Source: an uncultured archaeon (GTDB lineage: Archaea > Thermoproteota > EX4484-205 > JAAOZP01). Taken from it: 64,000 nt of DNA. Numbering within the stretch: position 1 is the first letter of the stretch; each line of letters starts with the position of its first letter. The DNA is taken from assembly GCA_938045545.1 (NCBI GenBank), contig CALIBN010000006.1, forward strand, positions 1 to 64,000, in the 5' to 3' direction. The notes under the pieces were generated by a model. It worked only from the letters and a program-made list of their open reading frames with translations, was not told where the DNA came from and ran no database searches. The translations under genes and the position numbers were made by a program. Of the stretch, positions 48,082 through 51,187 are shown in pieces.

Positions 48082-50424
48082 TTGAGAGTGAAGCTTTGGC
48101 TTCTAGATTTGAACCAGGAGTTCCTCTCAGGTAAAGATGCTGTTTTCCTATGGGGTATCTCTAATGCTGGAAAAAGAGTGCTGCTGGTAGATGATAGTGT
48201 TGAAAGCTTTTTCTTCCTGAAGCCTTTAAACGGTGTTGACGCTGATGAAGCGGTTAGAGCGGCTTTTCCGGAGGGTAGGAGGTATGGCGTCACCAGGATG
48301 GAGGTGTGCGACAAGCTGGTTCTCGGAAAACCCGTTAGGGTTGTTAAAGTATGCGTCGACAGGTCTGACAATGTTGAGAAAGCAGCCGGGAGGCTTGAAA
48401 AGCTTAAGCTGTTCGAGAAGGCTTTCGAAAGTGACCTTAGGCTTTCGACAAGGTATTTGCTTGAGAAAAACCTTACTCCATCCTCTTGGTTTGAGGCAGA
48501 GGTTGAGATAAACCCTTTTCTACCTTCCATTCCTAACGTAGAAGCCTTCAAGGTTAACGCGGTCAGACCATTAGAGGAGGAGAAACCCCCGGAGCTCCGA
48601 GTAATGGCTGTGCATCTTCTCAAAGTGGGTGGAAAAGGCTCTCCTAAGCCGGAGTACGATCCTATTGTTGCAATATCCACTTACGATGGGAAGGAGCTGA
48701 AACAGTTTAGGTTTGACGGTGAAACAGACAGGTTTTTAATAGAAGGCTTTCTGGATCAAGTGAAAAAGTTTGATCCAGATGTTATAGTGGGGTATGGAAT
48801 AACTGAGGACTGGAGTTATCTGGCGGAGAGATGCAAGAGGGTTGACGTTCAGCTGGAGGTTGGACGGAACTACGCTAAGCCGCATACGAGTGTTTTCGGG
48901 CATGTTTCAGTAACCGGCAGGATTAGCATCGATCTTTTCCATAATGCTCGAGAAAACCCTCAGTTGACTGAATATACGTTGGACGAGTATGCTGAATCCC
49001 TCGGCTTTAGAGTTGGCCAAAGGATTCCTGAGCATAAATACTCCGAGTATTTGTCAAGCTCTTCAGAGGCGGAGAAGCTTTTCAAACAATCAGAGGAGTA
49101 TGCGAGGCTGTTGCACAGGATTTGGATGATGCTCGGCGATTTCGCAATACAGCTTTCCCAGATCACCGGGCTGCCTATGGACCATGTTTTCACAGCCTCC
49201 TCGGGGCATAGGGCTGAGGCATACTTGATCAGGGAGGCCTATTCTTTGGGAGAGTTAATACCCCCAAGGGTTGAAAAACCATATGTTCCTTACGCAGGCG
49301 GCCTGGTTCTACAGCCGCAGGAAGGCGTTTATGAAAACGTCAGCGTGATCGATTTCTCATCGATGTATCCAAACATTATGCTGAAATACAATGTTTCTCC
49401 AGACACATATGTCCCTGAAGGCGAGGAATGCAAGGATTGTTACGTCTCGCCTGAGTCGAAACACAGGTTTAGGAAAGACTATAGAGGAGTCTACACTAGA
49501 ATGCTTCAGAAGCTTCTGGAGGCTCGGAGGAGTGTGAGAAAGAGGCTTGAAAGCGTGGAGGAGGGGAGTGTTGAACACAGGATTCTCGACGCTAGGCAGA
49601 AAGCCCTCAAGATTCTTGCGAACACGCTTTACGGTTACGCCGGCTGGATTGGTGCACGCTGGTATCTGAGGCAGGTTGCTGAATCCGTTGCAGAATGGGG
49701 AAGATACATGATTACAATGGCTATTCAGAAAGCCGGGCAGATGGGGATGAAGATAGTCTATGGGGACACTGACAGCATCTTTGTTATGGACGGTGAGAAG
49801 CTTAAGGAGCTGGTAGGCTGGATTGAAAGTGAGCTTGAAATGGAGGCGCGTGTCGATAAGAAATACAGGAGAATACTTTTCACTGAGGCGAAGAAAAGGT
49901 ATGGCGGTCTTTTAGAGGATGGTGGTCTCGAGGTTGTAGGCTTAGAGGTTGTCAGGGGGGACTGGGCGGAAATCGCTAAGGAGACTCAGCTGGGGGTTTT
50001 GAAAACAATGCTTGAAACAATGGATGTCGGCAAGGCAGTATCCTACGTGAGAAACATTATAGCAGAAACCAGAAGCGGCAGGGTTGAGATGGAGAAGATG
50101 ATCATATGGAAGAGAATGACTAAGCCTCCGGAGGCCTATGAAGTCAGAGCACCGCACGTGTTGGCTGCTCTCGAGCTCTCTAAAAGAGGCTGGAGGATAG
50201 ATGTGGGTGACAAGGTTGGCTACGTTATTGTAAAGGGTTCTTCGAAAATAGGTGAGAGAGCCAAACCATGCCAGCTGGTTGAAAAGAGGGATGTTGACTA
50301 CGAGTATTATGTTAAGAACCAGATAGTTCCGGCAGCCATGAGAATACTTAAAGTGTTTGGAGTAGACGAGCAGAATCTACTGCATGAGTCTAAGAGGGGG
50401 CTCATGGCCTTTGGTGCAGATTAA
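48082..50424 (+). CDS. polB: Family-B DNA polymerase with inactivated exonuclease domain
   Basis: 780 residues, the usual length for archaeal PolB. Polymerase motif A is DFSSMYPNIMLKYNVSPDT with D424, motif B KILANTLYGY, and motif C YGDTDS with D562 and D564, so the polymerase site is intact. The 3'-5' exonuclease site is not. The Exo I position (AFDIE in homologues) reads AVHLL at 176-180. Exo III (YNRDD) reads YARLL at 340-344. Only the Asp of Exo II (EDWSYL) remains. This paralogue should polymerise without proofreading. TTG start, with GTTAAAAT about 29 bases upstream. It is not in an operon with other replication genes. Confidence 0.9.
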   Translation: MRVKLWLLDLNQEFLSGKDAVFLWGISNAGKRVLLVDDSVESFFFLKPLNGVDADEAVRAAFPEGRRYGVTRMEVCDKLVLGKPVRVVKVCVDRSDNVEKAAGRLEKLKLFEKAFESDLRLSTRYLLEKNLTPSSWFEAEVEINPFLPSIPNVEAFKVNAVRPLEEEKPPELRVMAVHLLKVGGKGSPKPEYDPIVAISTYDGKELKQFRFDGETDRFLIEGFLDQVKKFDPDVIVGYGITEDWSYLAERCKRVDVQLEVGRNYAKPHTSVFGHVSVTGRISIDLFHNARENPQLTEYTLDEYAESLGFRVGQRIPEHKYSEYLSSSSEAEKLFKQSEEYARLLHRIWMMLGDFAIQLSQITGLPMDHVFTASSGHRAEAYLIREAYSLGELIPPRVEKPYVPYAGGLVLQPQEGVYENVSVIDFSSMYPNIMLKYNVSPDTYVPEGEECKDCYVSPESKHRFRKDYRGVYTRMLQKLLEARRSVRKRLESVEEGSVEHRILDARQKALKILANTLYGYAGWIGARWYLRQVAESVAEWGRYMITMAIQKAGQMGMKIVYGDTDSIFVMDGEKLKELVGWIESELEMEARVDKKYRRILFTEAKKRYGGLLEDGGLEVVGLEVVRGDWAEIAKETQLGVLKTMLETMDVGKAVSYVRNIIAETRSGRVEMEKMIIWKRMTKPPEAYEVRAPHVLAALELSKRGWRIDVGDKVGYVIVKGSSKIGERAKPCQLVEKRDVDYEYYVKNQIVPAAMRILKVFGVDEQNLLHESKRGLMAFGAD

Positions 50425-50734: not shown

Positions 50735-51187
50735 ATGTTTGAGAAAGAGTACATAGTAAGGGAGGCTAAAGAAGAAGATTTAGAGACAATAGTGAGGCTT
50801 GAAAAAGCCTCCTTTCCTGAGTATCCTTACCCCTTTAAGGTTTTTGAAGAACTATTGATGCGCTGCCCGAAGTATTTTTTAATAGTAGAATACAAGGGGA
50901 GGATTTCAGGCTATGTTTGTGGAAGGCTTGTTGGAAAAAGCCTGGGGGTAGTCGTGTCTATAGCTGTTGAACCAGAGTTGAGGAGGAGGGGAATCGGCAG
51001 GATTTTGATGCTTGAGCTTGAATCAAGGTTTAGGGAAAACCATGTTAAAACTGTTCGTTTAGAGGTGGGTGTTGATAATGATGCAGCTATTCGGCTTTAC
51101 GAGTCTTTGGGCTATGAGACTGCCGGGTTGAGGAGGAAATACTATCCGGATGGAAGCGACGCATTGGTAATGGTTAAAAATTTATGA
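50735..51187 (+). CDS. GNAT N-acetyltransferase (RimI-like)
   Basis: A 150-residue acetyltransferase. The acetyl-CoA loop is VEPELRRRGIGRILM (R/QxxGxG/A), and RLEVGVDNDAAIRLYESLGYE is the typical RimI end. Archaeal RimI/Ard1 proteins acetylate protein N-termini. The N-terminal REAKEEDLETIVRLEKASF matches the first strand and helix. It is not clearly operonic with nikR, which has its own TATA box. Confidence 0.92.
   Translation: MFEKEYIVREAKEEDLETIVRLEKASFPEYPYPFKVFEELLMRCPKYFLIVEYKGRISGYVCGRLVGKSLGVVVSIAVEPELRRRGIGRILMLELESRFRENHVKTVRLEVGVDNDAAIRLYESLGYETAGLRRKYYPDGSDALVMVKNL

Follow-up and report, generated by a model that had tools for sequence, protein, structure and literature searches.

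A PolB3-group DNA polymerase with a degenerate exonuclease site and an intact polymerase site from an uncultured archaeon

The polB3 gene and its surroundings

The window is a stretch of 64,000 nucleotides from an uncultured hot-spring archaeon of the Thermoproteota (contig CALIBN010000006.1, positions 1 to 64,000). It includes an ORF at positions 48082..50424 of the forward strand that has a TTG start and encodes a 780-residue family-B DNA polymerase with the Pfam domains DNA_pol_B and DNA_pol_B_exo1, exactly the coordinates and length given in the initial annotation. The closest solved relative by sequence is the PolB of Pyrobaculum calidifontis (5mdn, E 2e-177), which is also the best PDB match of the predicted fold (TM 0.89). 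The protein scores 595 bits against 5mdn versus 150 against the PolB1 1s5j, and in the tree it is placed among the PolB3s, apart from the PolB1 outgroups. Judged on its sequence, it is a member of the PolB3 group, but an exonuclease-less variant rather than a typical member because the conserved 3'-5' exonuclease motifs, stated to be a feature of the family (PMC5911459), are missing. Identity as a PolB2 was rejected: motif C (YGDTDS) is intact and the PolB2 operon is missing, with neither an inactivated RadA nor arCOG07300 present around the gene.

The closest named relatives are Candidatus Brockarchaeota GD2_1 (88%) and QC4_43 (72%) and the 'Thaumarchaeota' MAG SJ3.Bin56 (84%), and the genome is therefore described here as Brockarchaeota-like, within the TACK archaea. 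The neighboring genes encode MFS, glyoxalase-fold, GNAT, NikR, Na/Ca exchanger, and dehydrogenase proteins; no repair-gene operon was found among these neighbors. The GNAT (RimI-like) acetyltransferase gene is located 3' of polB3 on the same strand (50735..51187, +). Genes of the same cluster adjoin polB3 at 18 loci (the window and 17 others), upstream of it at most loci and downstream in the Brockarchaeota. At the C terminus of the polymerase, the sequence KRGLMAF (50395..50415, +) may represent a degenerate PCNA-binding (PIP-like) tail; residues 770–780 form a low-confidence tail in the modelled structure, and clearer PIP-like C-terminal tails occur in relatives, such as RRLTDFF in locus L025.

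The window polB3 is mosaic when compared with its counterpart in GD2_1 (L033), with a break near 49030-49110. Third-position identity is at least 0.90 over codons 1 to about 320 and 0.3–0.6 beyond about codon 360, and the identity of the flanking DNA falls at the same break. Either the gene has recombined or one of the MAGs contains an assembly chimera.

Polymerase, exonuclease, and uracil-pocket residues

Residues were mapped by alignment to 5mdn and 96 exonuclease-intact PolB3s. The polymerase site is normal, as the initial annotation had proposed: motif A (IDFSSMYP, 49348..49371, +) includes D424 and the steric-gate residue Y429, motif B (KALKILANTLYGY, 49600..49638, +) is intact, and motif C (YGDTDS, 49759..49776, +) includes D562 and D564, which together with D424 are the carboxylates of motifs A and C. 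The exonuclease motifs are degenerate. The FDIE of Exo I in the aligned PolB3s is replaced by VHLL, within the remnant AVHLL (A176–L180; 48607..48621, +), and the catalytic D-x-E has become H178 and L180, in agreement with the earlier claim that this motif is lost. The claim that Exo III is lost also stands, but its register does not; in the remnant QSEEYARLL (residues 336–344; 49087..49113, +), the columns of the Y-x3-D motif are occupied by Q336 and Y340, so that the Tyr of YARLL sits in the Asp column. Damage to Exo II had been overlooked. In its remnant, GYGITEDW (residues 237–244; 48790..48813, +), the Asn is replaced by G239 and one residue is deleted, and D243 is the only catalytic residue left in the three motifs. 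On this alignment, loss of the exonuclease site is nearly certain, and, unlike in PolB2, only the exonuclease is lost, motif C being intact.

Compared with its counterpart in genome G005, the gene has a dN/dS of 0.12 over the exonuclease region and of 0.07 over that of the polymerase, and it is therefore a maintained gene, not a pseudogene. The exonuclease domain of the structure model is confidently folded (pLDDT mostly 83–96); it remains folded and under purifying selection, probably in a structural role.

Residues Y7, P36, F116, and R119 (Pfu and KOD numbering) are the uracil-pocket positions considered here; the pocket is well established for the Pfu and Tgo polymerases. The pocket Tyr is also given in PMC5911459. 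The equivalents of the first three in the window protein are Q12 (48115..48117, +), S42 (48205..48207, +), and L121 (48442..48444, +); at these positions Tyr, Pro, and Phe or Tyr, respectively, are present in 96/96 exonuclease-intact PolB3s. The equivalents of V93 (V87) and R119 (R124) are kept, and partial uracil sensing is possible because of these two residues. In a post hoc comparison of positions assigned by alignment, all four pocket residues are kept in 96/96 exonuclease-intact versus 14/86 exonuclease-less PolB3s; another alignment, made with less care, had one exonuclease-intact row that scored as pocket-eroded. The N-terminal domain is generally less constrained in the exonuclease-less proteins, and the columns of P42, Y12, and R124 are among its four least retained invariants. 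Because recent losers of the exonuclease (L187, L202, and L206 of the Sulfolobales and L086 of the Culexarchaeia) still have the full pocket, its erosion appears from these sequences to follow exonuclease loss. The decay of the uracil pocket in exonuclease-less PolB3s is a new observation.

Distribution, origin, and companion polymerases

The PolB3s that were aligned came from 80 named loci and from about 110 genomes spread across the phylum. Whether relatives share the loss was a check suggested by the initial annotation, and they do; it is a large, lineage-wide feature and not an individual oddity. The loss goes beyond a chance event, since the exonuclease site is missing from all seven copies read from the genus of the window (the window, L016, L019, L023, L033, L034, and L035), although some of these represent a single genome that was arrived at twice. 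Other exonuclease-less PolB3s are found in the Brockarchaeota, at every sampled Bathyarchaeota locus, in the korarchaeal Methanodesulfokora, in Geocrenenecus, in the Methanomethylicota, and in others, and Culexmicrobium has a partial loss; the PolB3s of the Thermoproteales, Desulfurococcales, most Sulfolobales, and Nezhaarchaeota are intact. Among 85 distinct exonuclease-less PolB3s, conservation is 100% at the Asp residues of motifs A and C and at the Tyr of the steric gate, and the four exonuclease catalytic columns vary. Positions that are invariant in the intact enzymes have a median retention in the exonuclease-less ones of 0.99 in the polymerase domain versus 0.87 in the exonuclease domain; catalytic-motif residues account for five of the six positions that are most often lost from the latter. 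At the level of the alignment, exonuclease loss is site-specific and not a general decay.

Position 353, an Asp in the window protein, is a near-invariant Pro in exonuclease-intact PolB3s and an Asp in 63/85 exonuclease-less ones, possibly a structural compensation. In loci L201 and L214 (genome G139), the PolB3 frame is broken by three TAG and one TGA codons, which may result from TAG recoding, a frameshift, or an assembly error. Loci L079 and L082 are from MAGs labeled Acidobacteria and Syntrophaceae with PolB3 contigs that are clearly archaeal, indicating contamination or mislabeling. Four Sulfolobales loci (L187 in G275, L202 in G068, L206 in G086, and L210 in G122) exhibit an independent and more recent decay of PolB3, in which the exonuclease is gone but the uracil pocket is still whole and which, in G086 and G122, has removed polymerase residues as well.

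A convergent polB3-dnaG neighborhood, in which dnaG was recognized from sequence and position, is present at 25/36 exonuclease-less and 33/44 exonuclease-intact loci; this pair is described for crenarchaea (PMC4104785). At the window locus, dnaG is not adjacent to polB3. Because the dnaG synteny is shared, the exonuclease-less genes are, as judged from gene order, orthologues of ordinary crenarchaeal PolB3. In a polymerase-domain tree made without long branches or an outgroup, a branch with a support of 99.4 sets off 49 exonuclease-less PolB3s. This tree places the Culexarchaeia (G178) and Sulfolobales (G275) as later, separate losses. In the tree that includes the PolB1 outgroups, the genus of the window is a long branch on the exonuclease-less side. 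This arrangement points to one ancient origin for the main exonuclease-less group and at least two later losses. Since PolB1 and euryarchaeal PolB3 carry the exonuclease motifs, we infer that the direction of change was loss and not gain.

The initial annotation had supposed that proofreading polymerases are encoded elsewhere in the genome, and family searches of the 2.03-Mb assembly (92% complete) bear this out. It contains exactly two family-B polymerases, the second of which is a PolB1, above the NCBIfam PolB1 cut-off, with the intact exonuclease motifs IDIE, FNGDKFD, and YCFRDAE. PolD is also present; DP2 was found, and the nuclease motifs of DP1 (DIH, GDLVD, GNHD, H, and GHVH) are intact as judged by eye. 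The genome also encodes a Y-family polymerase, which rules out the suggestion that the exonuclease-less PolB3 stands in for a missing one. Y-family genes are more common with exonuclease-less (22/54) than with exonuclease-intact PolB3s (4/57), and the exonuclease-less lineages have or lack them by no clear rule.

An exonuclease-less PolB3 is present in 51/55 PolD-positive versus 5/58 PolD-negative genomes (Fisher p 2e-21), an association behind which the tree places only about three changes of exonuclease state and for which an independent-pairs test is not significant. It is a lead and not a law. A strict rule that the exonuclease is lost whenever PolD is present is ruled out by four genomes (G217, G257, G204, and G106) that have kept the exonuclease although they have PolD and, in addition, another family-B polymerase similar in length to PolB1. 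Genome G021 (98% complete) and two Sulfolobales have lost the exonuclease without having PolD.

Probable function and comparison with known systems

The window protein is probably an active polymerase that does not proofread, tolerates uracil, and serves in bypass or gap filling beside PolB1 and PolD. It is a PolB3 orthologue from a lineage whose proofreading site disappeared long ago under continued strong selection on the polymerase, and its exonuclease domain has been retained, probably as a folded structural piece. The resulting enzyme would extend primers but could not trim a mismatched end, and, unlike ordinary archaeal family-B polymerases, its damaged uracil pocket would let it proceed without stalling ahead of template uracil. 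We infer that it has no exonuclease activity, tolerates uracil, and serves in bypass or gap filling, carrying out short, tolerant synthesis such as extension past lesions, deaminated bases, and mismatched ends and the filling of repair gaps; alongside two proofreading replicases, PolB1 and PolD, this type of synthesis is the likeliest, and its logic resembles that of eukaryotic Pol ζ. The error-prone or translesion role suggested in the initial annotation is a candidate reading, which the erosion of the uracil pocket fits; the gene could equally serve in Okazaki-fragment processing, in Pol α-like extension of primers, or in filling gaps in general. Weighing against bypass are the Y-family polymerase that the genome already encodes and the lack of a repair-gene operon around polB3. 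Sulfolobus can dispense with PolB3, but cells without it become sensitive to 4-NQO (PMC8100216). By analogy, these data point to a role in the damage response, although the Sulfolobus enzymes in question carry an exonuclease (PMC7785828). The PolB3 of Aeropyrum has a weak exonuclease despite intact motifs (PMC5911459), which suggests that proofreading may already have been marginal in the family. A literature search found no biochemical reports on any exonuclease-less PolB3. More tentatively, and with a chance that we place somewhat below even, one ancient event may have turned the PolB3 of most PolB3-bearing, PolD-positive Thermoproteota into a dedicated third polymerase that is proofreading-free and uracil-blind. 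It would be the archaeal equivalent of Pol ζ (or Pol α), having arisen independently within the replicative PolB3 family, and loss of the exonuclease would have freed uracil read-ahead from selection.

Bypass or gap filling is our first choice, and the serious rival is that the enzyme is an Okazaki-fragment polymerase, filling gaps and displacing strands on the lagging strand on behalf of PolD and PolB1. Exonuclease loss would then favor strand displacement and do little harm, as only short patches are made. The Thermococcus PolB, a PolB3-group enzyme, acts on the lagging strand, where it displaces strands and matures Okazaki fragments better than PolD does (PMC13136892), and the PIP-like tails of relatives and the far higher frequency of exonuclease loss with PolD agree with such a role. 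However, it does not predict the loss of uracil sensing, the PolD association amounts to about three independent changes, and the exonuclease and polymerase variants of Thermococcus are limited by viability (PMC13136892); overall we regard it as unlikely, if well worth considering. It is improbable that the enzyme is a Pol α-like extender, lengthening the products of primase until PolD or PolB1 takes over. Eukaryotic Pol α is an exonuclease-inactive family-B primer extender (PMC7544198), and polB3 is convergent with dnaG in most relatives, but this neighborhood is equally a feature of exonuclease-intact PolB3s and is absent at the window, and the two genes are convergent and not co-transcribed. 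A fusion to the true primase, or co-occurrence with it, was not seen.

If PolD and PolB1 suffice, a dispensable PolB3 might be in slow decay, with fidelity lost first and the polymerase drifting. PolB3 is dispensable in Thermococcus (PMC13136892) as well as in Sulfolobus (PMC8100216), the Sulfolobales L206 and L210 have lost polymerase residues too, and no PolB3 turned up in G007, a Brockarchaeal genome that is 92% complete. Nevertheless, the catalytic carboxylates are invariant in 85/85 exonuclease-less PolB3s from dozens of families, and both the median retention of 0.99 and the dN/dS of 0.07 in the polymerase region run counter to drift, leaving slow decay decidedly improbable. An alignment or annotation artefact, with the acidic residues located elsewhere or an error in the assembly, is scarcely credible; the mosaic structure of the gene calls for caution about assembly or recombination, but its break lies outside the catalytic positions of Exo I and II, independent assemblies agree (L016/L035, L019/L033, and L023/L034), and the loss is phylum-wide.

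PolB3 is described in the accessible literature as a proofreading polymerase, and high-fidelity enzymes for PCR come from archaeal PolB3s. The existence of a natural, lineage-wide exonuclease-less PolB3 beside PolB1 and PolD bears on the division of labor among archaeal polymerases and on whether uracil sensing serves proofreading, and the natural enzymes make both questions testable. Naturally exonuclease-less, uracil-tolerant thermophilic polymerases are also potential reagents. No published exonuclease-less PolB3 group was found in the open literature. The inactivation of PolB2 is known (PMC2527604, PMC4104785, and PMC7544198), and the accessible passages of these three papers on PolB3, the exonuclease, and inactivation mention no exonuclease-less PolB3; an earlier notice in print may exist.

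Among known systems, the crenarchaeal PolB3s (Pyrobaculum 5mdn, Aeropyrum PolB3, and Sulfolobus Dpo3) are the best match, being orthologous and having the dnaG synteny of the relatives and a full polymerase site, but they keep all of the exonuclease and uracil-pocket residues, most of which the window protein has lost. PolB2 (Dpo2), for which a translesion role has been shown, similarly has degenerate exonuclease motifs and coexists with proofreading polymerases. It differs in having an altered motif C with one Asp and an operon with a RadA-like gene and arCOG07300, whereas the YGDTDS of the window protein is perfect and those neighbors are absent. Eukaryotic Pol ζ, which performs translesion extension, and Pol α are also family-B enzymes in which the exonuclease site is inactive and the polymerase site active, but they belong to another branch and have extra domains and subunits. 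The euryarchaeal PolBs (Pfu, KOD, and 9N) are, like the window protein, members of the PolB3 group that coexist with PolD; in contrast, they have a strong exonuclease and stall by uracil read-ahead.
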